Origin: a virus
Length of the DNA: 64,000 nucleotides
Direction: 5' to 3' (one strand)
Virus record (IMG/VR): IMGVR_UViG_3300020187_002434
Coordinates: 51,241-115,240 of that record
Shown here: one piece after another, positions 1-62,189 of the stretch
How the letters are laid out: each line of letters opens with the position of its first letter
Numbering within the stretch: the stretch's first letter is position 1
Translations under genes and position numbers: made by a program
The notes under the pieces: generated by a model
Told to the model about the DNA's origin: nothing
Seen by the model: only the letters and a program-made list of their open reading frames with translations
The model's database searches: none

Positions 1-1067
1 CCTTCCATCATATCGTCATTAAATCTTGATGTCTCATAAAAAAAATCTCCATTAGGGTTTTCATATGACCATAGATAATAACCTATCGCATCTTCACCGA
101 CCTCATCCTCCATAAAGTCCAAATAATTCTTAAGTTCATTACTGAAATTAAAAATTGCGTTCTCACCATCAAACCTATCAAAGAAGTGAGATGTTAATGA
201 TTCATACATAGATGTCTTAGGGTTATTTTTTACTTTCTTTAGAGTTTCGTAGTCATCCCCACGTTCCGTCAGTTTATTAATCTCTTCCTTTATTGGTGCA
301 AATCTTTCTAATAAAAAACTAAATTTTTCCCCGTGGTCCTGTTGATTGTATACCTCAGGTGTGCCGTTACCATGAGGTACAAGTAATGCCATTTTACCGT
401 ATGTTCTGTCTGAAGATTTTTTATCTATAATGTAATATAGTTTACCTCTTGATGTATATCTGTTAAAATAGTCGTCGTTATCAGTACTGGTGGTACACCA
501 TTTAGTACTTGCTCCGTAGTAACATGATGATTTATGTGATAATGGACGTATTATTAAAAATCTATCGTTTTCATAAACTCTATCTACTTCTTTTTTTACT
601 TCTTTTTCAGTCCTTATCTCATCTAAATAATCTTCGTACTTATTAACAAAACGAAATAAATCGTGAATGGTATCAAACGAGGTAATGTCTTTTGGTTTTG
701 ACCTTATCTTTTTTTCTGTACTTTCACTACTAAAATTTCCTTCTATATTTAAGATATTAAACATATTATCAACCTTTTCAGGTGATAATCTTTCAACAAT
801 ATCATGATACTTTTTAATATTGACCCATATAATACTTGCGACTGAAATTGGGTCCCCTCCTCCTACAACTGAAGAAGTGGGTTTATTAATTTCATCTATA
901 AATTTTTTAACACCCCATTCAGAATACTTTTTAGTTAAGCTTGGGTCGTTATTTATAATTATTTCGGCATATTTTATCGCCTCGTCACCTAACGGTTCAA
1001 GTTGATTTCGGAACTTATCTATTATACGCTCCTTTTTACCTTCTAATAATAGAGTTATAAACTTCAT
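1..1067 (-). CDS. Virion-type protein of unknown function, C-terminus cut by the window edge
   Basis: The frame opens with an ATG that overlaps the stop of the upstream 474-aa gene (TAATG) and runs off the left edge after about 355 residues. It starts MKFITLLLEGKKERI, a short hydrophobic segment ending L-L-E-G that resembles the N-terminal tag of many proteins here. Around residues 180-225 it has a Cys/Trp-rich block (SCYYGASTKWCTTST, then F-x-x-Y, GKLYYIID and YGKMALL). I have the impression that blocks of this kind recur in large-phage hypothetical proteins, but I know no function. The one-base overlap suggests translational coupling with its neighbour. Confidence 0.75.
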   Translation of the reverse strand, partial: MKFITLLLEGKKERIIDKFRNQLEPLGDEAIKYAEIIINNDPSLTKKYSEWGVKKFIDEINKPTSSVVGGGDPISVASIIWVNIKKYHDIVERLSPEKVDNMFNILNIEGNFSSESTEKKIRSKPKDITSFDTIHDLFRFVNKYEDYLDEIRTEKEVKKEVDRVYENDRFLIIRPLSHKSSCYYGASTKWCTTSTDNDDYFNRYTSRGKLYYIIDKKSSDRTYGKMALLVPHGNGTPEVYNQQDHGEKFSFLLERFAPIKEEINKLTERGDDYETLKKVKNNPKTSMYESLTSHFFDRFDGENAIFNFSNELKNYLDFMEDEVGEDAIGYYLWSYENPNGDFFYETSRFNDDMME

Positions 1068-2491
1068 TAGTCATATGCTGCACATCCTATACCACCACTG
1101 TCTTCAAAAAATCCGACACCACCACCGCTCTTAATAAAATTAAAAATCTTACGGTTTCTCCCTCCTGTTGGTTGTGTATCACTTGTTATTTTAATATCCC
1201 ATTCACCAATTTTATCATCAGTACCAGGTTCACTCTTTTCTGTATCATAATCAAATTTAACAGCCAATTGTATTATACAATATTTATACTGTTCATATTC
1301 ATTTGGTGAACTGTGTGGTTCTTGCCCATTAAATGTTCTGTCACCCTCTTGTTTAAATGAATTAGGGTCACCACCACCATCAGAAAATTGATTTGGACTT
1401 GGTGGATTTGGTCCTGATGAACCGTCACCATTTCTACCATTAGAATTTAAAGTGACATTTACTGTACTTATGTCGGGTACTAAAGAACTTAATTCATTAA
1501 CTATGTAACTATATACACTTTCAGCTCTCTCTTGAGAAAGTTCTTTAAAATTCATTTGCTGAGCCTCTCCTGTATTTCTGTATCTTGACGCTGATGTCGC
1601 AATTACAAATGGGTAGTTTTCACCGTCTACTTTATTCGCCACTGAAACTTTAGCATCTGGAAATTGTTTTAGAAAATCGGTAATATCACCTTTAAATTTT
1701 TTAGTCCACTCAACGACGCCTTGACCCACTCTTGTTGAGTTGTTAGGGAATGGTTCACCTTCAGTTTTCTTGTCTATTGAGTGATTAACTTTAACCGCGG
1801 GTATTACAGTTTCATCTTTTTCTTCTTTTGATAACTTACCAGGTATTAGACGTATTGATTTAATATTTTTTCTACATTCACCTATATCAGGAGTACTTTC
1901 ATCTTTCTTTTCAGGGTATTTTTTAGTACACCAATCGATAAAATATTGAATGAACCCTTCTTTATTTTCTTCTGTCATAGGAGGAACATCGGCACCTGAT
2001 TGTCTTTTGTCTTTTCCTTTTACACCCTTACTACCAGTTTTACAAGCGTTAAGTGATGACTCATTAAAGTCCGGATTTAACGAATCTTCGCCGAGAGGGA
2101 ATCCGAATTTTACTTGACCTAAACGGTCACCGTTTTGGTCTTCAATATTTCTTAACTCTTTTACAGAGTTACGATATTGGCTTTCATCTTTAAAATATGA
2201 TTTAGGGATGTAATTGTAACTACTGTATAGATATTGTCCATCAACACCTCTTCTTGTTGTTGTTTTTTCCGGTAACTTTTCAGACTCTAATTCTGAAACA
2301 GGGAATCTATATTTGAAATAATATCTTGGTGAACAACTGAAATCATCACCAGCACTTTCCCAATAAATTTTACTCTTTTCATCTAATAATGAGACAAACA
2401 CTCTTTCTATATTGTCAGTTTGTTCTAAAACTAACTCCAACCCCATAATTTGTCTCATGCGGTTAACTTCATTTATAATATTACGCTTCAT
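1067..2491 (-). CDS. N-terminally tagged protein with an OmpA-like C-terminal region
   Basis: The 474-aa product begins with the tag-like segment INEVNRMRQIMGLELVLEQ. Residues about 300-350 (SASRYRNTG, N-F-K-E-L-S, then RAESVYSYIV) resemble the R-x-N-T-G, N-x-x-L-S-x-x-R-A-x-S-V-x-x-Y core of OmpA-like peptidoglycan-binding domains. A low-complexity Gly/Pro/Asn linker follows. The middle is rich in Lys and Asp with scattered Cys. A TATTTATA box lies 13 nt before the ATG. The OmpA assignment is moderate because the domain is degenerate; a packaged or cell-wall-interacting virion protein is the inference. Confidence 0.8.
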   Translation of the reverse strand: MKRNIINEVNRMRQIMGLELVLEQTDNIERVFVSLLDEKSKIYWESAGDDFSCSPRYYFKYRFPVSELESEKLPEKTTTRRGVDGQYLYSSYNYIPKSYFKDESQYRNSVKELRNIEDQNGDRLGQVKFGFPLGEDSLNPDFNESSLNACKTGSKGVKGKDKRQSGADVPPMTEENKEGFIQYFIDWCTKKYPEKKDESTPDIGECRKNIKSIRLIPGKLSKEEKDETVIPAVKVNHSIDKKTEGEPFPNNSTRVGQGVVEWTKKFKGDITDFLKQFPDAKVSVANKVDGENYPFVIATSASRYRNTGEAQQMNFKELSQERAESVYSYIVNELSSLVPDISTVNVTLNSNGRNGDGSSGPNPPSPNQFSDGGGDPNSFKQEGDRTFNGQEPHSSPNEYEQYKYCIIQLAVKFDYDTEKSEPGTDDKIGEWDIKITSDTQPTGGRNRKIFNFIKSGGGVGFFEDSGGIGCAAYD

Positions 2492-2504
2492 TGTAATTTT
2501 TCTT

Positions 2505-2512
2505 TATAAATA
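2505..2512 (-). promoter_or_regulatory. Late-type TATTTATA box
   Basis: TATTTATA on the coding strand, 13 nt upstream of the ATG of the 474-aa tagged protein; one of about 29 boxes of this class in the window. Confidence 0.5.
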
Positions 2513-2513
2513 G

Positions 2514-5177: not shown

Positions 5178-8174
5178 ATGAATTTTACTTTTTTTAATAA
5201 GGCACGCCGTGTGCTTTTAATACCTTTAATGCTCTTGTTTTCAGTAGTATTAAGGGCTCAATGTGACGTTTTTATAGAACAGGGTTCTGTAGTCGTCACT
5301 GATAATGGTAGTGGTGTCAAGTTTCAATTTGACGTTACAAACAATTCGGGTAGTGAATGGGAAGGGGACGTACTTAAGATGTATTGGTCACTTAATTCAA
5401 GTGCACCAATATGGACCATAGATTATACCTCAAACAACAATGTTGGACCCTTACCTCCTGGTCAGACTAGGACAATAACAACCCCTTGGTTCGACATTCC
5501 AAATCTCCCTTCATGGTTTCCTGAAGACCCAGGTCCTGGTGGAGTAAATGATTTATCGTGGGAAGAGTCTATGGAATGGGCGTATTATGGTTTATCTTTC
5601 CCTTTTGATGGGGCTTGGTCACAATTTAATCTTAGGTTAGGTAGTTGTGGGTTAGCTGATGGCGCTTGGGTATATAACTCAGACGGAACACCATACTACG
5701 GACCTTTTAATACTGATTGTCCTGATGTAAATAATGATGCGTTTTGTGATTGTGATGTTAATTTCCTTGGATTTGACCCTGAAACATATGACGTAAGTAT
5801 TGAAGTAGTATCACATTGGAACTGTGGCACTTCTTTAAATACGGTGGGTCAGTCGGGACAAATGGATTATGTAAATATGGTTCAAATAGGTGCACACGTA
5901 CCTGGTTGGGATTATGAATGGGGTTGTACCGCATCTGAATATCATTTAGGATGGACATTTGATAATCCTGTATCATTTGCTGAGTATTACGCGGGTGATA
6001 CAATAAATTATAATATGTTTGCTGACGATACATTTTATGATGATTGTTTCCAAAGTATCTTAGAGTCTGATACATTAACTTCATGTTTGGAAGTTGTATT
6101 ATGGCAAATAAACTATTCGGAAACTGCGATTATTGGTGAAATTGATGGTGGTTGGGCCCAGACGTGTGGATTATGTGCGGACCAAACACAGTTTTATCCT
6201 GACATATCAATGGAATTAAATTCTATTAATGTATGTGATGCACCACCCCCTATTTACCCTGGTTGTACTGACCCTTTAGCAGAAAACTTTAATGGTAATG
6301 CGGGGTATGATGACGGGACTTGTACTTTTGCACCTGTATACGGTTGTCAAGACCCTATCGCTTGTAATTATAATCAACAAGCAACCGAAAATGATGACTC
6401 ATGTATATATTGTGATACTCCAGAGGGAGAAGAATTATGTAATGAATATCATGGCGATAGCACTTATTGGGAGTTTTATAGTAATCTATTCGACTGTGAT
6501 GATGAAGTAATATATACTCCTGACGCAGGTGGATATGTTTCATTTGTAAATGCAGTGTGTGATGACGGGATAGTTTCTAACGAAATTAGTATAATAGTAG
6601 TTAACCCTGATACGGGTAATTTTAATTCAAATGACACATTATTTGTGTATTGTGTAGAAGTACCTGAATTAGGTCTTGATACTTGTTTAAATGGTAATTT
6701 AAACGGTACTGATTGGATTGAACCTGGTGGGGGTCAGTTAATATGGACTATTAATGTACCTGATTTTATAACTCAACTAACAATTAATGTATATGATGTT
6801 GAAGGTGAGATTGATGAATATTCATATAACAATACGTTCTTATACTTAAATAATATAAGTGACCCCGATGTATGTCTTGTTTTAGGATGTACAGACCCAA
6901 TAGCGGAAAATTATAATCCGTTAGCAACTGAGGATGATGGAAGTTGTGAATATATGGTTGATTTATCATTAGATAGTATAACTATAAACGAATACTGTGA
7001 CGGATTTACCCCATACTGGGTTCCTACGTTACATCTAAACAATCTAACCAATCCCGCGATAAATGAATACTGTATTAAAGTTCAAGTCTTAGGACAAACA
7101 AACGACACTATTTGTTTTAATGCGATGGGTACAACAATAAACTCATTCGGTGATATCTCTATTGAGTGGCCTAACCCCATATACTCATATGGTGTTGTTA
7201 GTGTACACGTTTTAGACGTAAATGGTGAGAGTCCTAACTCATGGGAAAATTTCGGAGAAGATGATAATATTAGTAATAATATACTTGTCCTTACAATCGG
7301 AGGTTCCGGAATTAATTGCAATGTTGCGGGATGTATCGACGATACTGCTAATAACTATAATCCTGACGCAAATGTGGATGATGGTAGTTGTACTTACGAT
7401 ATATTCGGATGTACCGATGAAAGCGCTAATAATTACAATCCCAATGCGAATTTAGACGATGGTACATGTACGTATGATATTTATGGTTGTACAGATGAAG
7501 AAGCAAATAACTACAACTCAACAGCTAACGTGGACGATGGGTCTTGTACTTATGACGTTTTCGGCTGTACAGACTCAACCGCAAATAATTATAACCTCTT
7601 AGCTACAGTCGATGACGGTTCTTGTGAATATGATGTATTTGGGTGTACTGATGAAAGTGCTAACAATTATAATTCACTTGCTAACGTGGATGATGGTAGT
7701 TGTACTTACGATATATTAGGGTGTACCGATTTAAACGCTAACAATTATAATATGTTCGCAAATGTAAATGATGGGTCATGTGAATATGACGTGTTTGGAT
7801 GTACTAACATGGACGCATTAAATTATAATTTTGAAGCGACGATAGAAGATGGTACTTGTGTTTTTCCTAGTCCTTGTGATGAATTCGACGGTCAGGCATT
7901 TGCACCTAACGCATTTAGTCCTAATAATGACGGTTTAAACGATTCTTGGGGGGTAATAACCGACGAAGAGTGTTGGAACACATGGGAAGTATCTATTTTC
8001 AATAGATGGGGTCAAGTGGTCTTTAAAATCGATAATCCTAATGGAAGATGGGATGGAAGTTTTAATAATGGTGGGTATTACGTACAAGACGGAGTTTACG
8101 CTTACACAATTAGGGCAGTGGCATGGAATTTGGAGGTCTTGGATACGAGTGGTTATATAACCGTTCTCAGGTAA
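5178..8174 (+). CDS. Secreted repeat adhesin with type-B T9SS C-terminal domain
   Basis: The 998-aa product has a basic, hydrophobic signal peptide ending LRAQ. A β-rich region is followed by at least ten copies of a Cys/Asp-rich unit (GCTDxxAxNYNxxAxxDDGSC), seven of them in tandem at residues about 718-896 with a 26-residue period. The last about 95 residues (FAPNAFSPNNDGLND, IFNRWGQVVF, GRWDG, G-V-Y-A-Y-T-I) are a canonical gliding-motility-associated C-terminal domain (CHU_C, type-B sorting signal). Host family members are exported by the T9SS and displayed on the surface, often needing a PorP/SprF partner; such a partner is encoded at 14987-15961. A cell-surface or virion-associated adhesin is inferred. 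Confidence 0.9.
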   Translation: MNFTFFNKARRVLLIPLMLLFSVVLRAQCDVFIEQGSVVVTDNGSGVKFQFDVTNNSGSEWEGDVLKMYWSLNSSAPIWTIDYTSNNNVGPLPPGQTRTITTPWFDIPNLPSWFPEDPGPGGVNDLSWEESMEWAYYGLSFPFDGAWSQFNLRLGSCGLADGAWVYNSDGTPYYGPFNTDCPDVNNDAFCDCDVNFLGFDPETYDVSIEVVSHWNCGTSLNTVGQSGQMDYVNMVQIGAHVPGWDYEWGCTASEYHLGWTFDNPVSFAEYYAGDTINYNMFADDTFYDDCFQSILESDTLTSCLEVVLWQINYSETAIIGEIDGGWAQTCGLCADQTQFYPDISMELNSINVCDAPPPIYPGCTDPLAENFNGNAGYDDGTCTFAPVYGCQDPIACNYNQQATENDDSCIYCDTPEGEELCNEYHGDSTYWEFYSNLFDCDDEVIYTPDAGGYVSFVNAVCDDGIVSNEISIIVVNPDTGNFNSNDTLFVYCVEVPELGLDTCLNGNLNGTDWIEPGGGQLIWTINVPDFITQLTINVYDVEGEIDEYSYNNTFLYLNNISDPDVCLVLGCTDPIAENYNPLATEDDGSCEYMVDLSLDSITINEYCDGFTPYWVPTLHLNNLTNPAINEYCIKVQVLGQTNDTICFNAMGTTINSFGDISIEWPNPIYSYGVVSVHVLDVNGESPNSWENFGEDDNISNNILVLTIGGSGINCNVAGCIDDTANNYNPDANVDDGSCTYDIFGCTDESANNYNPNANLDDGTCTYDIYGCTDEEANNYNSTANVDDGSCTYDVFGCTDSTANNYNLLATVDDGSCEYDVFGCTDESANNYNSLANVDDGSCTYDILGCTDLNANNYNMFANVNDGSCEYDVFGCTNMDALNYNFEATIEDGTCVFPSPCDEFDGQAFAPNAFSPNNDGLNDSWGVITDEECWNTWEVSIFNRWGQVVFKIDNPNGRWDGSFNNGGYYVQDGVYAYTIRAVAWNLEVLDTSGYITVLR
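7329..7866 (+). repeat. Seven tandem 78-bp coding repeats in the adhesin
   Basis: Seven in-frame copies of a 26-residue unit, G-C-[TI]-[DN] ... A-x-N-Y-N ... [DE]-D-G-[ST]-C-x-[YF]. Each unit has two Cys and an Asp-rich turn, which suggests calcium binding or disulphide-stabilised repeats. Copies differ at many synonymous sites, so they are not a very recent expansion. Confidence 0.9.
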
Positions 8175-8288: not shown

Positions 8289-8924
8289 TTATGAGAAGAC
8301 CTTATCTCTAATGCCTCTCAATTTCGAGTCCATATTTGACTCAATGGAATCCAATAAAGATTCCAACGCCGTTGTAAACTTATCTTCAATATCTCTTTTA
8401 AATCTATCGTTATCAATTTGCTTCATCACAATTTCTTTTGTCGTATCTGTAAGTCCTTCTAAGTATTTTTCTTCAAATTCTCTTGTGAATACATCGGCGA
8501 TACTTCTCGGTAAGAACTTCTTATCCGTAAATATTTTAGAAAATTCCTCTTCTTCAATTTCTGATATTGTCTGAGACAATACATCCTTTTCAAAACCATC
8601 AATATTAAGTTTACCCTCTAAAAAAAATAATAACTTATCTTTTAACGTGTCTATAACTTTAGAACCATCATCACCCATAATACCTTTAAGTGTCATAATT
8701 AAATCTTCATTAACTACGGATTCACTAATACCCATTTTTATCAAATGATTAGCCTCTAAAAATAATTTATTAAAGAATTTGGTGGTATGAATTTTAGAAT
8801 TAAAGTTAACAGACTCAGATATAATACCTAATCTTCCTTTAACAATTTTAGATTCAGTAAGACTATTAAGTTTTTTAGTTTCTAATTCTATTAGATTCTT
8901 TTTAACTATGTGTTTTAGACTCAT
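8289..8924 (-). CDS. Helical protein of unknown function, last gene of a virion-type operon
   Basis: The 211-aa product starts at an ATG overlapping the previous stop (ATGA), giving MSLKHIVKKNLIEL; a longer in-frame extension has no such support. It is almost entirely charged and helical, with no Cys and no membrane segment. Near its N-terminus it has L-T-E-S and I-S-E-S, close to the L-x-E motif of the N-terminal tags. It may be a small internal or scaffold-type protein. I do not recognise a family. Confidence 0.75.
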   Translation of the reverse strand: MSLKHIVKKNLIELETKKLNSLTESKIVKGRLGIISESVNFNSKIHTTKFFNKLFLEANHLIKMGISESVVNEDLIMTLKGIMGDDGSKVIDTLKDKLLFFLEGKLNIDGFEKDVLSQTISEIEEEEFSKIFTDKKFLPRSIADVFTREFEEKYLEGLTDTTKEIVMKQIDNDRFKRDIEDKFTTALESLLDSIESNMDSKLRGIRDKVFS

Positions 8925-10327
8925 TTTTCTTTGGGTTTCCACGCATTTATTGATTCTGTGAATTCCTTACTATTAACTCTCACTCTTTCATAAATATCTG
9001 AGTTTTCAGGTTTTTTAAGTTTAAAACCTTTTTTTTTTAAGTTTTCTAAAAATTCCTTCTGAGACTTCGTAAATTCGTTTGTAAGACCTTCCCCATTTAG
9101 TAATGACTGTAAACCTTTCTTTTCTTTACCCTTCATAACCTCTTCAAAAGGTTGTTCTTTTTTCATCGATTGATTATGTGTGTTGATATAACTATCTCTT
9201 TGTATTTCCTCTTTTTCTCCCCCTCCAAATTCAACTTCAGGTATCTTATCACCACCGACTATCTTAAAATCTCTATAATCAGGACCCTCATTATTAGTAA
9301 TGGTAAAATATATTATACCACCGTCCAATAATTTACCTAATCCATTCATCTGAGAATTAAAAGGAAGTTCAATATTTGCATTATTATAGTAAGAACCCAA
9401 TCTAACGACAGGTTCTCCCGTTTTTTTATCTTCACCTTTAGCGACTACTACTGACCTAATAAATGCAATATCTTCAGGATATTTTTTCATTAAATCCATA
9501 AATTCTTTATTTATTTCTTCACGGTCTTTATCTGTAAAAACTACTTTTTGTTTTCCTTTGTCATTTGCAGTATAAAAATTAAATTCTTTTAACTTTTCAT
9601 CTATTTTTTCTGGTATTGAATTTTCCATTTCATTTTCTTTTAATACGTCTTTTAACCCTTCATTAACTTTATTTGTACACCAATTAGAATCTGAAAATTC
9701 TTGCCATGAACCACTACTCGGCGGGTCTATAAAACCCCATTTTCCACCTCTTTCTTCTATCGGTAACGGTATATTTTTTCTACCTGTTTGTGAATCAGCA
9801 AAAAAGACAATTCTCTCATCTTCGTATTGACTGTTTGGTTCTCTTTGAACGAATATTAAAGGCCAAACTCTTCCACAAGGTATACCTTTCAAGTAATCGA
9901 CCACATCTCTAAATTGTTGATTTACAGTTGAGCTTACACCGCTTTTACCTAAATTTAATTTCTCTTTTTTTAACTCTCTACCACTTTTTTGTCTTGCGGG
10001 TGGTGATGGCGGTGTTCCTCCTGGGTTAGGTTGTGTTGTCGAGCCTGTTGTAGGAGATGGCGTAGTACTACCAGTAGGAGGAGGTGTTGTACTTATCTTT
10101 TTAGTGTAGTACGCTTTTGGTGGCATTGGAGGACCTGTGACAGTATCATCTTGATATAATTTATAATCTGAAATGTTATCACCGTTAGATGTGATTTTGT
10201 TTTTTAAATTTGGTTCATTATCCGGTCCTTCCCATCCTGCACCAGAAGGTGTGCCACTTTTTTTTTCAGTTTGTCCCCAACTAGTGGATTGTTCGTTTAG
10301 TATTATTTTATTTGACATTATATTCAT
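8921..10327 (-). CDS. Tagged virion-type protein sharing a domain with the M23 peptidase
   Basis: The 468-aa product begins MNIMSNKIILNEQ (short tag form). Residues about 80-115 are a Pro/Thr/Gly linker. Residues about 135-225 contain C-G-R-V-W-P-L-I-F-V-Q-R-E-P-N, then E-R-G-G-K-W-G-F-I-D and S-N-W-C-T-N-K. This is clearly related to the C-terminus of the M23 peptidase at 46693-47616. The rest is acidic and helical. Its ATG overlaps the upstream stop (ATGA) and its own stop overlaps the next ATG, so the three genes form a tightly coupled operon. Confidence 0.85.
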   Translation of the reverse strand: MNIMSNKIILNEQSTSWGQTEKKSGTPSGAGWEGPDNEPNLKNKITSNGDNISDYKLYQDDTVTGPPMPPKAYYTKKISTTPPPTGSTTPSPTTGSTTQPNPGGTPPSPPARQKSGRELKKEKLNLGKSGVSSTVNQQFRDVVDYLKGIPCGRVWPLIFVQREPNSQYEDERIVFFADSQTGRKNIPLPIEERGGKWGFIDPPSSGSWQEFSDSNWCTNKVNEGLKDVLKENEMENSIPEKIDEKLKEFNFYTANDKGKQKVVFTDKDREEINKEFMDLMKKYPEDIAFIRSVVVAKGEDKKTGEPVVRLGSYYNNANIELPFNSQMNGLGKLLDGGIIYFTITNNEGPDYRDFKIVGGDKIPEVEFGGGEKEEIQRDSYINTHNQSMKKEQPFEEVMKGKEKKGLQSLLNGEGLTNEFTKSQKEFLENLKKKGFKLKKPENSDIYERVRVNSKEFTESINAWKPKEK

Positions 10328-12180
10328 TTTGATTTAAAATCACCATTATCATATACATAATAAGTATCAGTTCCATTACCTTTTCTTGACACTACATACC
10401 ATGTTTTACCACCGTCCTCACCTGCTTTTTTCGCAGATAAGTAATTATATACATCCTCACTTAAATTATCCCTTACGAATGATTTGAAACTATCTTCCTC
10501 ATTCTTATACGTAACAATCTCGGCAGATGGTAGAAGATTACGGACCTTATTTACTATTTCCATAATTATTCCATCAAATTCACTCATGTCGTACTTTCCT
10601 TGTGAGGCTGTTTCTATAAATGCATCAACTATAGAATAACCCATACTGTCCTGAACGCTACCTAAACCTCCAGGTACAAGCCTTTCAATAATATTAACCA
10701 TAGTTCCAACAAAGCTATTAGGGTCATCTTCCCCTTTCTGTCTAAGAACATCAAAAAGAACTCCAACTCTTTCGTAGGCCCATTCACTTAATCCTTGTTT
10801 CCATATTGTATTAAAATCAATTTTAAAATTATTTAAATCCGTATCAAACATATCGGAAAGCCCGTCTAATAATGAGTTCCAACCAGACTCAATTAAACCT
10901 CTCAGAATATCAAATACAAATATAATAACCGATTGTGCAAACCAACCTACAAAATAACCAACAAGTGATTGTGCCAAATAAACTAATGCATATTTCAACT
11001 TTTTACCTCCAGTTTCTCCTGCGGATGTCCTAATTAAACCCAAATACTGCTTATTTAAACCTGCAAATTGATTTGTAAGCATAAATTGACCTACTGACGT
11101 TCTAGGGTCAATTAATGATTTTACGGCCTCCATTCTTTGACCTTTAGTTAATAATTGTTTTACTGTTAATAATAATTCACCTGAAAATGACTTCATAACG
11201 TCTCCCATTATTTCTCCCACACCCTCTCCGGACTTCTCCCAAGTGTCATTAAAAATACTAAAAAACGGTATTTCACCATCCCTAATTAAATTTGTTATTT
11301 CAGAATCTAAACCTGCATCGGCAAGAACTTCTGCGGCCGCTCCGTCTTTTTTAATTTCTAACTGGTTTAATAATCTTGTTATTGCAACTGCATAAGCTTC
11401 TGTAATTTCTTTAATTTTTTTATCTGAATTTTGTTGACTTTTGGCAATTGCGACATCAGTTATGTAACCCGCATTTAATTCCTTAATTTCCTGTTTTACC
11501 TTATCAAAACTTTTTACAAACAATGTAAAGAAATCTTGAATAAATAATGTTGGAGTTTTATCATCAATAACTTTTCTGAGCTTTCTCATTTGTCTCTTAC
11601 TTAGTTTAGTAGGGGCTACACCTGATAAAGTATCTACAAAACTACTTGGTTTATTAACGTATATATCTAATTGTTTTTTTACAGTATCAAAAATCCCATT
11701 TACATTAATAGGTTTTTGTGGTGAGTCACCAACAACACGATTTAATGCCGTTACTAACTCGGTACCGGGTTTCTTCATTCCTTTTCTTAATTTTTCTAAA
11801 AATTCTCTCTCACTCATACTATTCTTTCTTTGGATATCCTTTAAAAATCCTTTATAAAATTCTAATGCAAGTTCATCGTCGTCATTTATAAGTTTACCCA
11901 ATAGAGTTTTTTCAGTTTCACCCATTTCGGATACTCTACCATTAAAATCTTCTAAAATATAAATAAGACTATCAAAATTTTCTCTTTTGAACGTTGTACC
12001 ACCTATTTCTATTTCTAAAAAATCACTTTTTTTAAGTGCCTTATTGACATATTTTAATATGTTATCGTATACACTGCTACCAATACTTTCTTTTAATATC
12101 GTTTTAGGTAAAGACATAATTTCCTTCATCCTATGTATTTCAATAAGAATATTAGGGTTAGTTAAATGTAATAGGTCCAT
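10324..12180 (-). CDS. Large tagged protein with a membrane-like segment
   Basis: The 618-aa product has an N-terminal tag-like region (I-E-I-H-R-M-K-E-I-M-S-L, ending ILKES). It is long and helical with a strongly hydrophobic stretch near residues 400-435 (YLAQSLVGYFVGWFAQSVII), then an amphipathic region, and ends in a compact segment with WYVV and YYVYDNGDF. The architecture fits an ejected virion protein that can insert in a membrane, but that is inference; I recognise no family. First gene of a three-gene operon, with a TATTTATT box 10 nt before the ATG. Confidence 0.8.
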   Translation of the reverse strand: MDLLHLTNPNILIEIHRMKEIMSLPKTILKESIGSSVYDNILKYVNKALKKSDFLEIEIGGTTFKRENFDSLIYILEDFNGRVSEMGETEKTLLGKLINDDDELALEFYKGFLKDIQRKNSMSEREFLEKLRKGMKKPGTELVTALNRVVGDSPQKPINVNGIFDTVKKQLDIYVNKPSSFVDTLSGVAPTKLSKRQMRKLRKVIDDKTPTLFIQDFFTLFVKSFDKVKQEIKELNAGYITDVAIAKSQQNSDKKIKEITEAYAVAITRLLNQLEIKKDGAAAEVLADAGLDSEITNLIRDGEIPFFSIFNDTWEKSGEGVGEIMGDVMKSFSGELLLTVKQLLTKGQRMEAVKSLIDPRTSVGQFMLTNQFAGLNKQYLGLIRTSAGETGGKKLKYALVYLAQSLVGYFVGWFAQSVIIFVFDILRGLIESGWNSLLDGLSDMFDTDLNNFKIDFNTIWKQGLSEWAYERVGVLFDVLRQKGEDDPNSFVGTMVNIIERLVPGGLGSVQDSMGYSIVDAFIETASQGKYDMSEFDGIIMEIVNKVRNLLPSAEIVTYKNEEDSFKSFVRDNLSEDVYNYLSAKKAGEDGGKTWYVVSRKGNGTDTYYVYDNGDFKSK

Positions 12181-12253: not shown

Positions 12254-12478
12254 ATGAAATACTCAGTTAAGGAAGTTGTTATTTATAAAAAAGAAACAGT
12301 AACAATAAGGGAAGTACATAAAGTTGGTAGTACTTATGCTTATGTTCTGAGTAGTGGTGAAAGTTGTTTTGAGGATGAATTACGTAAATCATCTAAAGAC
12401 CGTTATGTCTCACATGTCAATAACTTAATTAGAGAGAATATGGACGATATTTTAAAGTACTGTTTTAGTCCTGTCTAA
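12254..12478 (+). CDS. Small protein of unknown function
   Basis: A 74-aa protein (MKYSVKEVVIYKKE) whose first half looks like a small β-barrel (VTIREVHKVGSTYAYVLSSG) and second half like a charged helix. It has its own host-type promoter and a leader resembling those of other early-type genes (AGAACAAAA). Its 3' end overlaps the convergent 603-aa gene by 14 bp. No family recognised. Confidence 0.7.
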   Translation: MKYSVKEVVIYKKETVTIREVHKVGSTYAYVLSSGESCFEDELRKSSKDRYVSHVNNLIRENMDDILKYCFSPV

Positions 12479-15961: not shown

Positions 15962-15964
15962 ACC

Positions 15965-15972
15965 TATAAATA
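15965..15972 (-). promoter_or_regulatory. Late-type TATTTATA box
   Basis: Box 3 nt upstream of the PorP/SprF ATG. Confidence 0.45.
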
Positions 15973-15992
15973 TCAAAAAATATGTCTATTTA

Positions 15993-43857: not shown

Positions 43858-43864
43858 ACCTTTA

Positions 43865-43949
43865 GGAGAGATGGCAGAGCGGTCGAATGCGACGGTCTTG
43901 AAAACCGTTGTACCGAAAGGTACCGGGGGTTCGAATCCCTCTCTCTCCA
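43865..43949 (+). tRNA. tRNA-Ser (TGA)
   Basis: Acceptor GGAGAGA/TCTCTCC, anticodon loop CTTGAAA, long variable arm GTACCGAAAGGTAC, T-loop TTCGAAT. Confidence 0.93.
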
Positions 43950-43970
43950 CATAATTTAAAAATTAAAAAA

Positions 43971-46463: not shown

Positions 46464-46703
46464 ATGGGTCATATTAGAAAAAATATTAAAAGGGTTTTAA
46501 AAGAGTACGATAAAGAGGAATTATTTGACTACACACCAAATTTTTCCGCGGATGAATTACTCAAGTATATAGAATCAGAATGGGACGTAGAGATGTTGAG
46601 TTTAGTTAACTCAAAAATAAATGAGAGGATTGATTTCTTAAACCGTATTGCTGACATGAGTGCCAAGAAAGAAGTTAAAGGTTTTAAAAGATATGAAGAT
46701 TAA
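46464..46703 (+). CDS. Small tagged-like helical protein
   Basis: A 79-aa product starting MGHIRKNIKRVLKEYDKEE, basic and helical like the tags, then a helical domain. Its stop overlaps the M23 gene ATG by 11 nt in another frame. Function unknown. Confidence 0.65.
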   Translation: MGHIRKNIKRVLKEYDKEELFDYTPNFSADELLKYIESEWDVEMLSLVNSKINERIDFLNRIADMSAKKEVKGFKRYED

Positions 46704-49768: not shown

Positions 49769-50105
49769 TACAAAACTTATTTAAATCAATTTTTAGTGTT
49801 TCTAACTCATTTTCATCGACAATACTACCAGGTACTAAATTGTAACCATCATTTCTTGTTAATTTTTTAGAACTACACCTATATGTTATTGAATGTGATT
49901 TATTACCCTTACTCACTAAGTCTGCACTTATCAAATCACCCTCTCCTACGATATTTTCTAATTCCAATCTTCCGTCAAATTGTACATCGAGTCCTTTTTG
50001 AAATCCCACGTCATAACCTGTTTTAGCAAAATTAATAACTTGCTCATTTAGGTTATAAAGACCCCTAATTTTACTCTTTTCTAACTCAGTAATCGTAAAC
50101 TTCAT
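49761..50105 (-). CDS. Small tagged protein
   Basis: The 114-aa product starts MKFTITELEKSKIRGLYNLNEQ, a model tag ending L-N-E-Q. The rest is a small β-r fold (HSITYRCSSKKLTRN) with two Cys. A TATTTATA box is 4 nt upstream. Confidence 0.8.
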   Translation of the reverse strand: MKFTITELEKSKIRGLYNLNEQVINFAKTGYDVGFQKGLDVQFDGRLELENIVGEGDLISADLVSKGNKSHSITYRCSSKKLTRNDGYNLVPGSIVDENELETLKIDLNKFCNV

Positions 50106-51275: not shown

Positions 51276-52304
51276 TTATACCCCTCTATTGTCCATTACT
51301 GACCACACTTTTAGAGTCATATCACCTCTTAAAAGTGCCGCAATTAGTCTTCCTACCCCCCAATATAACTCTCCATTAACCATTGTTGACGGTTCTGCAG
51401 TTTTTGGGTCATAATTAATGTATTCTTCGTATCTTTCGGGATTTTGGTCGAATATTTCACCAGATTTTAGACCAAATTTACTTCCAATTTCGGTATCTGA
51501 GATGTGTTGTACGTCTTCTAACTCCAGTCTATACTTTGGGTTGGTCTTAATCATCTCCATAACATGTCTTGGAGTCCTTCCGATTGACTCTTTTACTGAA
51601 TCTGTCTGTAATAAGTTCAATAAATTCATAGTTATTGGGTAATTTGGGTCTAGCTCCCAATTTTTTATCAAATTTATGTCACTTTTTGACCCTTCAGGTC
51701 TTTCATCGATGATTTCTCTCTGAAATTCATCAGGAAAACGGTCTAAAATCTCGACCCACTTGTTATTTCCCTGTTCTATGGCTTTTTTTTTGTAACTTTC
51801 GAGGTTAATTTCAGACATTTTACTCTCAGAAATAACGTTCATCATATTTTTTATACGATTTACATCCTCAGATATCTGTTCCATATCAATTATATTCCAA
51901 TCACCCTCTCGGTCCAGCCAGTCGACATCAACCTCTTCTCCTTCATCATAACAAGGGTCACAATTATTTAAGGCGTTTTTTAAGTCATACTCATCATACG
52001 CTTCAACCTCATCTTGGTACGTTCTTCTTACTACCTCAGTACCTGAAAATTCAGTTCTTATCTTATATTTTTTGAGTTTTGGTATGATAATATCTTTATC
52101 TTCCATGTTACCCCAATCATCAAAAGTTTCTTTATTTTGAAACAATAATGCTGTTAAAAAATCGTGGTTTCCCACAATTGATGTTAAAGGGTGTGGTATC
52201 GGATAGTCGTAAATGTCGTAGTTTGAACTGTTCTCCCAAGGGTCTTTGTCCTTATACAATAATTTAGCAATACTCAGTACCTTATTAAAGTGACTTTTAT
52301 CCAT
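51276..52304 (-). CDS. ParB-like protein with an internal tag
   Basis: The 342-aa product (start MDKSHFNKVLSIAKLL) has an unusual layout. Residues 1-160 are an acidic domain with a Cys pair. Then comes MEQISEDVNRIKNMMNVISES, very like N-terminal tags of other genes (for example LNEDINRIKTLM). The C-terminus (PSTMVNGELYWGVGRLIAALLRGD) resembles the substrate-binding loop of ParB-like/sulfiredoxin folds. It may be two fused genes or have an internal start at the second Met. Confidence 0.7.
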   Translation of the reverse strand: MDKSHFNKVLSIAKLLYKDKDPWENSSNYDIYDYPIPHPLTSIVGNHDFLTALLFQNKETFDDWGNMEDKDIIIPKLKKYKIRTEFSGTEVVRRTYQDEVEAYDEYDLKNALNNCDPCYDEGEEVDVDWLDREGDWNIIDMEQISEDVNRIKNMMNVISESKMSEINLESYKKKAIEQGNNKWVEILDRFPDEFQREIIDERPEGSKSDINLIKNWELDPNYPITMNLLNLLQTDSVKESIGRTPRHVMEMIKTNPKYRLELEDVQHISDTEIGSKFGLKSGEIFDQNPERYEEYINYDPKTAEPSTMVNGELYWGVGRLIAALLRGDMTLKVWSVMDNRGV

Positions 52305-52339
52305 AACAGTAAAAAAATTCCCTATTAGAAGGATTTTTA

Positions 52340-52591
52340 TTAATCTTCGTCTTCGTCTTCGTCTTCTTCGTGACCACCTTCTAAGTCCAAGACTAATTTC
52401 TGACCACTGCAAGAACACTCACCATCTTTTAATAACATTGCGATATGGTCCAAAGTGATTTCAATTGCATCACCTTCTTCTTCGTCTTCTACTTCCATAT
52501 CCATGTCCATTTCGACTTCTCCTTGCTCTGCAAGAACTCTTTTTACAATATTTTCTAAATCTGATTCCTTAAGTTTAATAATTTTTTTCAT
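52340..52591 (-). CDS. Small tagged acidic protein
   Basis: The 83-aa product starts MKKIIKLKESDLENIVKRVLAEQ, nearly identical to the tag of the next gene upstream (52588-53016), after which the two proteins are unrelated. The rest is very acidic, has C-S-C, and ends in an (E-D)n tail made of repeated TCTTCG units. It is the clearest evidence that the tag is a movable module. Confidence 0.85.
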   Translation of the reverse strand: MKKIIKLKESDLENIVKRVLAEQGEVEMDMDMEVEDEEEGDAIEITLDHIAMLLKDGECSCSGQKLVLDLEGGHEEDEDEDED

Positions 52592-53016
52592 GATGTAAGT
52601 ATTTTATTTAGTGCTAATATGTTATTTAAATTATTTTTATAATTCTGAATCGCCTGTGCCATCTCATTAGACATTCCATCAACATTCGGAACAACTCTAT
52701 CGATATTTTTCAAAGCATTTTTAACATCATTATCCATACTTCTAACTAATGATTTAAGTTCTGCCTTTACCTTTTCTTCCTTTGGGTTTTGACCTTTTGG
52801 TAGTTCTTTTGGTTTTCCTGTTTTTACGTAACTTTTCTTAGTATCTCTAAAAGATTTTCTGTTTTGTTGTCTTGCTTTTACTGCTCCAACACCTCCGGCA
52901 ACTTTTGCTTTTAATCTATCAACAACCTGTTCGGTAGCCTCTTCTTCTTGCTCCGCAAGAACTCTTTTTATGATATTTTCTAAATCTGATTCCTTAAGTT
53001 TTATAATTTTTGCCAT
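52588..53016 (-). CDS. Tagged basic protein
   Basis: The 142-aa product starts MAKIIKLKESDLENIIKRVLAEQ. The mature part is basic (V-K-A-R-Q-Q-N-R-K-S, then KSYVKTGKPKELPKGQ) and then helical, a good candidate for a DNA-binding internal head protein. TATTTATA 14 nt upstream. The stop overlaps the start of the 83-aa paralogously tagged gene. Confidence 0.82.
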   Translation of the reverse strand: MAKIIKLKESDLENIIKRVLAEQEEEATEQVVDRLKAKVAGGVGAVKARQQNRKSFRDTKKSYVKTGKPKELPKGQNPKEEKVKAELKSLVRSMDNDVKNALKNIDRVVPNVDGMSNEMAQAIQNYKNNLNNILALNKILTS

Positions 53017-54592: not shown

Positions 54593-55285
54593 TTATGCCT
54601 TCATCATCGAGGATGGAAAATCGGGTTTAGATGGAAAATCAGGTTTGTTAATCTTATCTCTTGGTGGTACTTTACCTCCTTCAAAACATTGTCCTATACC
54701 AACACATTGTAGCAAACCTTTTATTTTATCTTCATCAATACAGAAATCCTCTTTTAGTCCTCCCATAAACTTAGATATACATCCTTGTACTTTCTCACAG
54801 TCCACATTGATACCACCGTCTTTAACTGGTACAGTACCTATTTGACCACCACCTTTACACTTATCACAAATTTCTTTAGGGATACAACCTAATTCACATA
54901 ATTTACCTGTAGTTTCAGGTCCGATACCACCGTCAACTTTAAGTCCATTTTTTCCTTGAAATACTTCAACAACATCCTTAGTCATACTTCCAAAGATACC
55001 ATCAACAACTAATGGTTGTAGAGGTTCGATACCACATGCGTTTAACGCTTCTTGAAATAACTTAACCAACTCACCTTTAGCACCTCTCTTAAGTTGTCCT
55101 TTACCGACCAATACTTGACAAAATTCGTCAGCAATTGGTAAGTATTTTTTTACAGGTACTTCTTTTTTTGGTGGAGCGTCGGTCATTGGTGGAGATACGA
55201 CTTTCTCTTGTTCATTTAATAAACCCTTATATAGACTCTGTATACTCAGTTTTTCATTTTCGGATAGTATGATTCTTTTTCCCAT
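54593..55285 (-). CDS. Tagged peptidoglycan-binding protein
   Basis: The 230-aa product starts MGKRIILSENEKLSIQSLYKG and LLNEQ, one of the clearest tags. Residues about 65-135 contain a PG_binding_1-type domain (GAKGELVKLFQEALNACG, D-G-I-F-G-S-M-T-K-D-V-V, GLKVDGGIGPET). The C-terminal half is Cys-rich (CDKCKGGG, CEKVQGC, CVGIGQC). A packaged protein that binds peptidoglycan after ejection is likely; no catalytic domain is present. Confidence 0.85.
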   Translation of the reverse strand: MGKRIILSENEKLSIQSLYKGLLNEQEKVVSPPMTDAPPKKEVPVKKYLPIADEFCQVLVGKGQLKRGAKGELVKLFQEALNACGIEPLQPLVVDGIFGSMTKDVVEVFQGKNGLKVDGGIGPETTGKLCELGCIPKEICDKCKGGGQIGTVPVKDGGINVDCEKVQGCISKFMGGLKEDFCIDEDKIKGLLQCVGIGQCFEGGKVPPRDKINKPDFPSKPDFPSSMMKA

Positions 55286-56040: not shown

Positions 56041-56217
56041 TTATCCACAGCAGGACATATCACAACAATTTCCTTCACACTTTGTTTCATCACAGTGGTC
56101 CATTTGACAACATGTTGTCTCCTTAACACACTCTGACTCGGATTCACAACAGGACATTTCTGATGACGTTGCACAACTAAACAATCCGACAGATAACAGA
56201 ATAAATAAATGTTTCAT
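56041..56217 (-). CDS. Cys-rich lipoprotein, copy 1
   Basis: A 58-aa product with a lipoprotein signal (S-V-G-L-F-S-C, lipobox Cys 15). The mature part has ten further Cys, mostly as C-C pairs (CCESESEC, T-C-C-Q-M-D-H-C, KCEGNCCDMSCCG). A paralogue of identical length lies at 60580-60756. The pattern suggests metal binding or disulphide packing on the cell surface. Its ATG overlaps the stop of the 182-aa tagged gene (ATGA). Family not recognised. Confidence 0.75.
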   Translation of the reverse strand: MKHLFILLSVGLFSCATSSEMSCCESESECVKETTCCQMDHCDETKCEGNCCDMSCCG

Positions 56218-56762
56218 GTTGTTTTGTTATTATTATTACAGAATCCCTTAACAGGTACACCTGAACTGGATATAAAATTATCGATAGCTTTAGCCAATTC
56301 ATCACCCCTATCGTAAGAGACTCTTAATTCTTCGAGGACACCGTCTTTTAATTCCTTAGACATCTCAAAACTTCTACCCTTATTTACTGCTCTAATTATA
56401 TCATCGATGAGGTTCACCAACTTACTATCTAATTTATCTAACAATAAACCGATAGCTTCGTCAGGTGTGTTTACCTTTTCACCCACCTGAACTTTTTTAA
56501 TTACATTTTTAATTGCAAATACACACTGAGCAACAGCACCTTCGACGTTATCACAAAGACTGTCAGAATCTGCAAGACCATTTAAAGTTTTAAACAAGCT
56601 CATCATAACATTTTTATACTTAGTGACCAACTCAAGGGCAGTAATTTTAGGGGGTCTGTTCTGAACTTTATCCTTTACCTTATCAATAATATTTTCATCG
56701 ACTGAATACATGTTAAGAATGTCGTGTTTTTCAGACTCAGATATAATAATTCTTTTACTCAT
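56214..56762 (-). CDS. Tagged helical protein
   Basis: The 182-aa product starts MSKRIIISESEKHDILNMYSVDEN, a model tag. The mature part is helical with a few Cys and Asp. No family. A TATTTATA box is 13 nt upstream, and its stop couples to the Cys-rich lipoprotein. Confidence 0.8.
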   Translation of the reverse strand: MSKRIIISESEKHDILNMYSVDENIIDKVKDKVQNRPPKITALELVTKYKNVMMSLFKTLNGLADSDSLCDNVEGAVAQCVFAIKNVIKKVQVGEKVNTPDEAIGLLLDKLDSKLVNLIDDIIRAVNKGRSFEMSKELKDGVLEELRVSYDRGDELAKAIDNFISSSGVPVKGFCNNNNKTT

Positions 56763-59114: not shown

Positions 59115-59732
59115 TTATAAAGAATTTGATAATTCACCAAATCTCTCACTGATTTTATTACCAAACAATTTAATAACTTCTTCTTTATTTGATATAGTAC
59201 TTAATGCGTTTTTAAAACTATCAAATGCGCTTTTCTTATTATGTTCAAAATTAATTCTAAACCATGAAGGATTATCTGGATATGTCTCAACATTAAGGCC
59301 ATTCATGTCTTTTCTAATAACTACATATACTCCTCCATAAGTATCAGATTCAGAATCTGATATATAAGGATAACCGTCCTTCGAATAAAGAGGTTTATAT
59401 ACATTCCATTTTAGATTATGTATATCTCCTGCAATATCCTTTTCTTCATTATTTTCACCATAATTTTTTAATTTAAAAATGTATCCGTTAAAAAAAAACG
59501 GAGTTTCCTTGTTTTGACTAGCAACCGATAAGAAATTATTAAAGTTTCCATTATCTAATCCAAAGTCGGCATCGAACTTACTATATTTAATGTTTTCATA
59601 TAGGTCAACCTGACCCAATTGTTTGTTGACCATTTGCTGGAACTTCTCGTTCATCAGCTTCATACCACCTGAATGTTGTTCCCTTATAGAGTTTTTTTCT
59701 TCCTCCGATATGTTATTTAGTAAATGTTTCAT
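59115..59732 (-). CDS. Tagged protein of unknown function
   Basis: The 205-aa product starts MKHLLNNISEEEKNSIREQHSGG, a tag like that of the 290-aa protein at 18563. The rest is β-rich and aromatic (TYGGVYVVIRKDMNG) with a helical end. No family. TATTTATA 16 nt upstream. Confidence 0.78.
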   Translation of the reverse strand: MKHLLNNISEEEKNSIREQHSGGMKLMNEKFQQMVNKQLGQVDLYENIKYSKFDADFGLDNGNFNNFLSVASQNKETPFFFNGYIFKLKNYGENNEEKDIAGDIHNLKWNVYKPLYSKDGYPYISDSESDTYGGVYVVIRKDMNGLNVETYPDNPSWFRINFEHNKKSAFDSFKNALSTISNKEEVIKLFGNKISERFGELSNSL

Positions 59733-60864: not shown

Positions 60865-61509
60865 TCATAGAGGTGGTTTTGTCCCTGTTGGTTTTGGTAC
60901 TGTACCTCCAATATGCGCAATCGAGTCTAAATAACGTAATGCTTTAGACAACTCTTCAACCCTATACTTTAAATCAGGAGGAGTCATACTCATTAGTTTT
61001 CCCTTTGAAGTTCCACTATTCCTAACTTCTTCTACAAAATCTGGTAGTCTATATTTTTTAACACGGTTTATAAAATCTTTGAATTCAGTTTTACTTAAAT
61101 ACAACATGTCTTTTAACCATTTTAAGGGAAGATAGTCACCATCAATTTTTTGAGTTTGTATTAAATCACTTACGATATCAAAAGGTTCTTCGTATTGGTC
61201 TTCATATCCAGTACCTTTGACAGTACTATTCCAAAAACCACCTATGTTATTCAATATACTACGATTTGTTTCATTAGTATTCATAACTTGATTCACCATT
61301 TCCTTATTACGAATATCAAGTAACTCTTCCCTAGTTTTATTTAAGATAGGTAAAACTTCAGATAATGATTGTTGAACAGTTTTCATTTTTGATAGTTGGT
61401 CTAATTGGTCACCCACTTTAAACTCATCATTAGATTGTTCATCAATCAAACCATACATCTCTTGTATGTTTCTTTTTTCTTCTTCGGATAATAATATTTG
61501 TCGTCCCAT
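60865..61509 (-). CDS. Tagged helical protein
   Basis: The 214-aa product starts MGRQILLSEEEKRNIQEMYGLIDEQ, a model tag. The rest is helical with acidic and aromatic patches and a Pro/Thr-rich tail. The ATG at 61509 is preferred; a TATTTATT box is 16 nt upstream. No family. Confidence 0.8.
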   Translation of the reverse strand: MGRQILLSEEEKRNIQEMYGLIDEQSNDEFKVGDQLDQLSKMKTVQQSLSEVLPILNKTREELLDIRNKEMVNQVMNTNETNRSILNNIGGFWNSTVKGTGYEDQYEEPFDIVSDLIQTQKIDGDYLPLKWLKDMLYLSKTEFKDFINRVKKYRLPDFVEEVRNSGTSKGKLMSMTPPDLKYRVEELSKALRYLDSIAHIGGTVPKPTGTKPPL

Positions 61510-61525
61510 AGTATTATTGTTTACC

Positions 61526-61533
61526 AATAAATA
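61526..61533 (-). promoter_or_regulatory. Late-type TATTTATT box
   Basis: Box 16 nt upstream of the 214-aa tagged protein. Confidence 0.5.
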
Positions 61534-61553
61534 TCCAATTTTTCCAAAAAATT

Positions 61554-62189
61554 TTAATCAATAAAAAACCCCTCCGTATTGGAGAGGGTCTTATTCCAAC
61601 CTTCATACGCAATGGCTGTAGTACGTTCAAGTACTTCTGCAAAGTATTCTTCATTATCGTTAATTAAATCAACCATTACTGCCCTTTCATCTTCCCACCA
61701 ATTATCAGTCTTTAAATTATTTCTCATCCACTCGTTTTCAGACAGTGTTATTAAATAACGAGTTAAGTGTAATGATTCATGAGCCAAAATTCTGTTAATA
61801 TATCCTGGTGATGATGCTCTTTGCACATTTATAAATTCAAATAGTTGGTCCCTATAAAAATTGGTTAAACCACCAATATATGCATCATCCATTTCCGTCC
61901 TTCCTTCAGATTCCATTTTGGTTATGTGTTCCTCAGCACCTTCTCTAGTTAGACCTGCAATTTCATTAGTACCAAAAGCATCAAAAATAGATAAACTACT
62001 ATCCCCAAAAATTAAATGATAAGGTTGTAATTTAATGTCCTTTTTATCTATAACATCAAATACACCAACGGTAACTAATTCATGTAGTAAAACACCTGTT
62101 TTTTTGGGTAAAGAAATGGACTTACTGATAGATTTTTGTTCTCTATCTTCCAACTCTTCTTTTAATACTTTTCGGATTAATTCTTTCAT
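61554..62189 (-). CDS. Putative metallopeptidase, tag-like start
   Basis: The 211-aa product starts MKELIRKVLKEELEDRE, a tag-like helix. Near residue 135 it has R-I-L-A-H-E-S-L-H-L-T-R with a downstream acidic run (WWEDERAVMVDL) that could give the third ligand. The last residues are encoded by a terminator hairpin at 61563-61591, which suggests the end was altered by insertion or copying of that element. The start at 62189 is preferred because of the TATTTATT box. Confidence 0.7.
   Translation of the reverse strand: MKELIRKVLKEELEDREQKSISKSISLPKKTGVLLHELVTVGVFDVIDKKDIKLQPYHLIFGDSSLSIFDAFGTNEIAGLTREGAEEHITKMESEGRTEMDDAYIGGLTNFYRDQLFEFINVQRASSPGYINRILAHESLHLTRYLITLSENEWMRNNLKTDNWWEDERAVMVDLINDNEEYFAEVLERTTAIAYEGWNKTLSNTEGFFID
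61563..61591 (-). terminator. Terminator hairpin inside the gene end
   Basis: CCCCTCC-GTATT-GGAGAGGG, almost identical to the one at 60821, but lying inside the 3' end of the metallopeptidase gene. Confidence 0.65.

Follow-up and report, generated by a model that had tools for sequence, protein, structure and literature searches.

Phage proteins that are packaged in the head and injected are difficult to identify, since they vary widely and have no matches. Proteins with unrelated bodies but similar N-termini, encoded in the virus record IMGVR_UViG_3300020187_002434, raise the question whether such proteins can be recognized by a common leader. The 64-kb stretch analysed here (the window; positions below refer to it unless stated otherwise) is the last part of this 115,240-base record (G000:C1:51241-115240). 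A preliminary description of the window had proposed that about twenty proteins share one N-terminal tag ending in L/I-x-E, comparable to the capsid-targeting sequence of T4 internal proteins (IPs), and that they form a large packaged cargo. Judging from their sequences, these tags are very probably capsid-targeting propeptides, which would direct proteins to the prohead core, be enclosed with them and be cut by a protease of the Peptidase_S77 family (S77).

Unrelated proteins share N-terminal segments of two classes

Residues 2-29 of the 110 larger proteins of the record were compared all versus all without a preset motif. A score of ≥40 was reached by 11 of 5995 pairs, compared to a mean of 0.4 after shuffling; internal segments gave 0.87 (maximum 3) and C-terminal ones 2. 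Of these 11 pairs, one is made up of homologous proteins and two include an untagged gene; after removal of related pairs, eight pairs scoring ≥42 remained versus 0.2 for shuffled and 0.6 for internal sequences. Judged by its capsid protein, the phage has Flavobacterium phage immuto, Microcystis phage Mel-JY01 and Rhodothermus phage RM378 as its nearest named relatives. The same pairwise test gave 14 pairs scoring ≥42 versus 0.2 in immuto, with signal peptides or tail-fibre paralogues accounting for part of these, and no excess in the first half of the crAss-like phage phi14:2 and the part of RM378 that was compared.

The shared segments fall into two classes that had been merged into a single pattern in the preliminary description: T1, with the consensus K-I-I-[KR]-L-T-E-S-x-L...I-V-K-R-V-[IL]-x-E, and T2, with x-I-L-N-E-x-x-R-x-x-x-[LI]-M-G-I...E. 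Profiles built from tags of other phages recovered eight T1 and four T2 proteins among the 140 called proteins of the record, ten of them in the window. The profile of 16 foreign T1 tags gave its eight matches at E≤0.03, all from residue 1, and seven of these lie in the window (genes with lower coordinates 52588, 54593, 23821, 56214, 22863, 60865 and 49761). With five foreign T2 tags four matches were obtained at E≤0.018; three of them, 14289, 1067 and one that starts at an internal ATG (51884), belong to the window. Reversed-sequence controls reached best E values of 0.42 (T1) and 1.2 (T2). Since profiles seeded with tags of this phage had served to select the foreign tags in the first place, this recovery is a consistency test and not fully independent. 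Tags fetched by a DNA pattern (see below) recovered three proteins of the record, 52588, 23821 and one outside the window.

Conversely, a single-pass profile of seven tags of this phage gave 14 matches with E≤0.01 among 1052 proteins of 12 other phages, at least three of which represent one body family. All but one of the 14 begin at residue ≤12 (13/14, binomial p 4e-15), and reversed proteins gave none. G005 and G013, which are close to the window's phage, were excluded from this test and from the two-site and conserved-domain counts given below. An N-terminal T1 or T2 match was present in 12 of the 13 relatives fetched by capsid protein, with none in G011. A third, short leader class (61554, 46464 and the immuto type MKKSQLR..IIRKEL) was not significant with the relatives' profile; because the two window genes reached only E 0.12 and 0.68 and reversed proteins also matched (30 reported stretches), this class was kept as weak.

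The pair excess over shuffled, internal and C-terminal controls and the recovery by foreign-tag profiles confirm that unrelated proteins do share N-terminal segments, more often than chance would give. Our tally for the window is ten firm, two borderline and about six weak cases, so that the earlier figure of about twenty overstates the firm cases and is approached only if the weak ones are counted. Eight of the nine examples named at that stage were supported. The ninth, encoded at 59115-59732 on the minus strand, is an unsupported weak candidate (E 1.6 with foreign T1 tags and 0.099 with a profile holding this phage's own tags).

The tag is conserved as protein and ends at a fixed glutamate

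A degenerate DNA pattern that covers the first 12 residues and is blind to the rest of the gene found at least 143 tag copies in at least 120 loci, with up to four tags per 11-kb stretch. Among the matches listed, to which the tag counts in this paragraph refer, 142 were scored (one of 143 was dropped for being shorter than 30 residues), and their mostly unrelated bodies fell into 95 single-linkage clusters. The motif [ILVM]-x-E, which lies outside the search pattern, stands at exactly residues 20-22 in 132 of the 142 tags and within residues 17-28 in all 142, the background being 1.7% per position. Glu at position 22 is the most conserved residue outside the pattern (92%) and similarity drops beyond it, a sharp end that bears out the L/I-x-E terminus originally proposed. 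The P1' residue is Q in 50 of 132 tags, followed in frequency by S, E, N and D. Residues 13-19 are basic and helix-like, with mostly K or R at positions 14, 17 and 18; some tags have a longer helix and still carry [ILVM]-x-E at the helix end (e.g. L151). Read from its sequence, the tag lacks the hydrophobic N-terminal core of a Sec or type IX secretion signal. No strong shared motif was found in the 141 upstream sequences, nine of which contain TATAAATA.

[IL]-x-E occurs both in residues 5-12 and in residues 16-30 of 26 of the 33 profile-defined tagged N-termini compared to 55 of 906 untagged ones, a contrast that is partly built in because the tag-defining profile contains these residues. A spacing of 13 between the paired sites is the commonest (13/26). 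The first half of T1, MKKIIRLTE/S (the slash marks the predicted cut), has the layout of the ten-residue T4 leader MKTYQEFIAE/A.

A profile search of other phages, as suggested in the preliminary description, found the tag there, at N-termini. Counted with a T1 profile that includes tags of this phage and its relatives, the highest numbers per record were 14, 11 and 11. Seven of nine random contigs had no tag, while G073, which has S77, carried seven and G090 one. T1 was absent by profile from immuto, RM378 and phi14:2, and a 29-residue tblastn query of the tag gave no match in the phage collection. The tag profile matched none of 98 cellular genomes, which belong to the class of a Euryarchaeota-labelled bin and not to Bacteroidota. 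Immuto has two copies of the T2 leader MKKQILSEQFxRMQxLAGIITE/S and four proteins with a leader of the MENFDLKKFLVEN type. In the body family containing YMFFSNLEQ, the leader is T1 in five phages and a shorter one in three, which indicates that leader and body change partners.

Such recurrence could also result from a recently copied DNA element, such as a mobile repeat or a translation start region, that has no function at the protein level. Codons at identical residues agree in 57% of cases between contigs compared to 50% expected from codon usage, and the flanks are unrelated (39% and 31% identity). Codons thus diverge while residues are kept, which implies that the conserved entity is the protein. 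Moreover, T1 and T2 differ in sequence and both keep the spaced pair of [IL]-x-E sites. Within contigs, codon agreement rises to 70%, above expectation, and recent copying of tag DNA therefore contributes to the pattern. As an explanation on its own, a copied element without protein function is disfavoured and appears highly improbable.

Prohead protease, head proteins and the predicted cutting site

A T4-like head module lies outside the window, on the minus strand at about 31-41 kb of the record. It comprises genes for the large terminase, portal, gp23-type capsid protein and prohead protease as well as a scaffold candidate; core and scaffold genes were assigned from position only. The protease is a gp21-like Peptidase_S77 (E 4.6e-24), so that a search for such a gene elsewhere in the genome, proposed with the original finding, located it beside the portal, capsid and terminase genes. 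His85 and Ser140, the catalytic residues of T4 gp21, are invariant in an alignment of T4, this phage, immuto and RM378. S77 was found in 17 of 18 related contigs identified via the capsid protein; in the one without it, G012, the capsid gene stands at the contig start. In a close relative the S77 gene contains a TGA, which may be a sequencing error or a real break, and reads as two open reading frames (ORFs; region G013:C1:33442-33969, L135).

The same site occurs in head proteins of types known as protease substrates. The capsid protein carries LYEN...LINE/A in 14 of 14 sequences (this phage and 13 relatives), at the place that matches IFEN...FLTE/A of T4 gp23; immuto has ILEN...VSE/A, and the protease leader carries I-K-E/S or a close variant. 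In [IL]-x-E density, the gene in the interval between portal and protease comes first among 84 genes here and among 112 in immuto, and its positional counterpart holds the first or second rank in 11 of 13 relatives, the contigs G003 and G012 not covering this interval. A core protein that is shredded would be expected to show such a density.

Beyond the head genes, [ILVM]-x-E/D-LAVWF places the site ahead of the LAVWF domain in 34 of 34 distinct contexts with varied upstream sequence, and [ILVM]-x-E/[AG]-EYxG does so for the EYxG domain in 19 of 20, the exception resembling a different protein; both sets of contexts include close relatives. One 304-residue protein of this phage (L005:9637-10551) contains both domains. 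Complete T1 tags also lie inside longer proteins, at residue 294 of protein 7109 of G012 and residue 133 of protein 33509 of G004, which suggests composite precursors. The genes of these two proteins, L141:7109-8428 (G012) and L112:14709-16154 (G004), combine a short N-terminal leader with the internal T1, and the latter ends in an OmpA-like region (E 3.9e-4, below the Pfam cut-off).

These sites bear on the possibility that the leader docks to the prohead core or another virion part, such as tail or baseplate, and is not chiefly a protease substrate. Docking would account for the conservation of about 22 residues, more than a three-residue cutting site needs, but it does not explain why Glu22 is the most conserved residue outside the pattern with similarity stopping there, nor why the same site stands ahead of conserved domains in other proteins. 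We regard docking without a major role in cutting as unlikely.

The association between tag and protease was followed in 50 tag-bearing contigs of ≥35 kb, drawn from 80 of the at least 120 loci (30 of these 80, below 35 kb, were omitted). S77 is present in 22 of the 50, gp23 in 23 and both in 21. G026 and G045, which have gp23 without S77, end ≤1.3 kb from the gp23 match, where S77 would be expected next, and G049, with S77 and without gp23, ends 2.5 kb after S77. Peptidase_S78 was absent from all 28 S77-negative tag contigs, and Terminase_6N was found in one of them.

Together with the partly built-in two-site contrast and the codon agreement within contigs, several observations weigh against the reading of the tags as capsid-targeting propeptides. 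S77 does not clearly separate tag contigs (22/50) from random contigs of ≥35 kb (3/14); only the conditional co-occurrence of S77 and gp23 is telling, not the base rate of S77. Six tag contigs of ≥100 kb lack S77, gp23 and the large terminase TerL, gp23 being the capsid type searched for there. The TerL of this phage was found in none of the six largest S77-negative tag contigs versus all six S77-positive ones tested, and the former look like fragments because they also lack TerL, which may account for the missing genes. In G020 S77 is missing beside a sub-threshold gp23 match, the tag of the random contig G090 likewise comes without S77, and RM378 and the random contig G094 have S77 without T1, which immuto lacks as well. 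Furthermore, taken one by one, most relatives give little signal in the motif-free pairwise comparison.

Tags might instead be substrates or ligands outside the capsid, for instance signals for cytoplasmic processing, degradation or regulation. The phage does encode a ClpP-family protease (43908-44642), and in large contigs some tagged genes are distant from the head genes, as such a role would allow. T4 gp21, on the other hand, acts in the prohead according to PMC9026906. Tagged genes are mostly on the head-gene strand (15 of 17 on the minus strand versus 51 of 123 others, with tags partly assigned by eye), and many immuto leaders of this kind cluster at 102-126 kb near terminase, portal and protease, as seen by inspection. 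A role outside the capsid seems quite improbable to us.

Proposed route of the tagged proteins

As a capsid-targeting propeptide, the short amphipathic N-terminal leader would bind tagged proteins to the prohead core, and this cargo would be enclosed while the gp23-type shell assembles. The S77 protease would then cut after the Glu of [IL]-x-E and free the cargo within the head, and part of it would probably be injected with the DNA. We would predict core binding, cutting and injection in this order, and presence of the tagged proteins in virions. By analogy with the T4 IPs and Alt, as treated in PMC9026906, it is rather likely that some of the cargo, at least, is injected. In the T4 leader, residues 4 and 7 mostly govern targeting and residues 8 and 10 processing, as PMC9026906 describes; in the present tag these roles would fall to the glutamates and to the hydrophobic residues at positions 4, 5 and 7.

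On balance, this portable two-site tag, which is not recognizably related to that of T4, may well be the general loading ticket of a large uncultured group of T4-like phages (records up to 326 kb). Each phage would then deliver a large number of proteins through its capsid, most of them unknown, and some would be made as composite precursors with internal tags, from which the prohead protease releases several cargoes. If so, a simple motif search would give the virion location and mature N-terminus of many unknown proteins (at least 95 body clusters), and the internal proteome of uncultured phages would become readable from sequence. What such phages deliver at infection would become directly testable if the tag marks cargo.

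Tagged proteins of the window and their bodies

The T1-tagged protein at 52588-53016 (minus strand, 142 residues; tag 52951-53016, MAKIIKLKESDLENIIKRVLAE/Q) matched the 16 foreign tags with E 1e-9 and the pattern-fetched tags with E 1.2e-11. It is net basic (29 K+R versus 19 D+E). The 124-residue protein at 23821-24195 (minus; tag 24136-24195, IKE/Q) reached E 2.2e-5 and 8.7e-5 with these two sets. Foreign T1 profiles also matched the proteins at 22863-23501 (plus, 212 residues; MKVILTESQFNTLLKE/N; E 0.0011) and 49761-50105 (minus, 114 residues; tag 50043-50105, LNE/Q; E 0.029). The remaining T1 proteins are encoded on the minus strand at 56214-56762 (182 residues; tag 56694-56762, VDE/N; E 1.3e-4), 60865-61509 (214 residues; tag 61438-61509, IDE/Q; E 0.0012) and 54593-55285 (230 residues; tag 55211-55285, LNE/Q; E 1.2e-5). 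The last contains a peptidoglycan-binding domain (PG_binding_1, E 6.8e-14), and this part of the earlier cargo list is upheld by Pfam.

All T2 cases of the window are on the minus strand. The protein at 14289-14969 (226 residues; tag 14913-14969; E 8.6e-4) has no Pfam match and carries the HExxH motif as HELVHHHQ, and that at 1067-2491 (474 residues; tag about 2423-2491, MKRNIINEVNRMRQIMGLELVLE/Q; E 0.018 with the foreign T2 profile) likewise has no Pfam match. A third T2 tag (E 0.0029, foreign T2 profile) begins at an internal ATG, position 51884, of the ORF 51276-52418; this position is probably the true gene start because the tag lies there, giving a gene at 51276-51884, the frame being open upstream. 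At its start the longer ORF encodes a run of arginines (RRRRRRRRR), and it overlaps an adjacent ORF. Borderline T2 proteins are encoded at 10324-12180 (618 residues; E 0.42 with the foreign profile, 7.9e-7 after iteration including this phage) and 12465-14276 (603 residues; E 0.12 with the foreign profile; tag end LSE/Q, residue 26). The tag tail of the latter, YDRSK-x-L-x-E-Q, recurs in protein 9691 of G009.

Weak candidates include an M23 peptidase on the plus strand (46693-47616 within ORF 46660-47616; Peptidase_M23, E 5.5e-20), whose N-terminus MKIKLIDILLE/EVTE/S was not recovered by the T1 or T2 profiles. Residues 184-304 of this ORF share a region with residues 98-221 of the protein at 8921-10327 (minus; E 8e-30), and the N-termini of the two differ. 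Short leaders are found on the proteins at 61554-62189 (minus; MKELIRKVLKE/E, HESLH in the body; E 0.12 with the short-class profile) and 46464-46703 (plus; MGHIRKNIKRVLKE/Y; E 0.68 with the short-class profile). The peptidases of the proposed cargo are accordingly softer than stated, since the tag of the M23 protein is weak and the tagged 14289 and weak 61554 proteins show an HExxH motif only. An M43 metallopeptidase at 35748-37763 (minus; E 2.3e-14) has an apparent signal peptide, as judged by eye, and no tag.

Among the matches listed, 131 tagged ORFs were kept after removal of incomplete and short ones, and these form 90 clusters. Tagged proteins are nearly invisible to Pfam: at most four of the 90 cluster representatives matched (three peptidoglycan-binding, one DUF6576), versus 40 Pfam families among 90 length-matched untagged neighbours, including repair, single-stranded-DNA-binding and baseplate proteins. 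Tagged bodies are not ordinary genes. An untagged Amidase_2 gene at 25531-26376 is a better candidate for the lysis enzyme. A single-sequence structure model of one tagged protein was poor (mean predicted local distance difference test, pLDDT, 44.6) and was not used.

Host and other features of the record

The host is inferred to be a member of the Bacteroidota from type IX secretion domains and the relationship to a Flavobacterium phage. A protein encoded at 5178-8174 (plus) has a type IX secretion C-terminal domain (CHU_C, E 4.6e-17), and the gene at 14987-15976 (minus) encodes a membrane protein of type IX secretion (PorP/SprF, E 4e-45); the phage may use or modify type IX secretion of the host. 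The sole capsid relative among genome contigs (L147, JABJFP010000288.1) lies in a bin labelled Euryarchaeota and is probably a mis-binned phage contig.

An 861-residue protein at 20214-22799 (minus) fuses DUF4314 with polyphosphate kinase 2 (PPK2, E 6.2e-70), and 12 tRNA genes lie at 31371-43950 (plus), ten of them clustered at 31371-33899. Hsp70 (27023-28903), an FKBP isomerase (28922-29350) and the ClpP-family protease (43908-44642) are encoded on the plus strand, and a ClpB-type AAA+ ATPase at L006:9292-11313. In the profile search none of these four carried a T1 or T2 tag.

Comparison with known systems

The capsid-targeting sequence (CTS) of T4 and the CTS-like leaders of T-even phages, the propeptides of giant phages and the signal of P1 DarB are already known. 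We found no description of the present tag in titles, abstract openings or passages of the open-access literature, a search that left subscription journals largely uncovered, and the strings RLTESDL, KLTESDL and IRLTES did not occur in the open-access literature searched. For proteomics of Flavobacterium phages, PMC7077304 yielded a match in its reference list only.

In the giant phages phiKZ and SPN3US, many inner-head cargo proteins likewise carry N-terminal propeptides that are cut after Glu by a diverged gp21-like protease, according to the accessible sections of PMC5694885. These systems differ in that several propeptides exceed 100 residues and the cutting motif is A-x-E or S-x-E; those sections describe no short motif common to many proteins, two paralogues sharing 15 residues. 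For P1, the available part of PMC9024508 reports that the N-terminal 30 residues of DarB suffice to target a reporter to the capsid, as a leader of this kind would, whereas no sequence common to the Dar N-termini was found there and P1 appears to lack a separate scaffold.

T4 offers the closest likeness. Here as in IPI-IPIII and Alt, which are processed by gp21, a short N-terminal leader on unrelated bodies ends in [IL]-x-E; the S77 protease has the same catalytic residues, and the gp23-type capsid protein has a matching propeptide site. T4 IPII and IPIII begin with MKTYQEFIAE/A, the layout of the present tag in a comparison by eye, the segments being too short and diverged to show descent. 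CTS-like sequences also occur on other basic proteins of T2, T4 and T6, as described in PMC9026906. In contrast to T4, the tag has no recognizable sequence homology to the T4 leader, about 22 instead of ten residues, two [IL]-x-E sites mostly 13 apart and at least two classes in one phage; it is found on at least 95 body clusters rather than a few small basic proteins and in two cases lies within a longer protein. The tag is best read as working like that of T4, from which it differs in sequence, in its greater length, in its two [IL]-x-E sites and in its far wider use, and it may represent the cargo tag of a second branch of T4-like phages.

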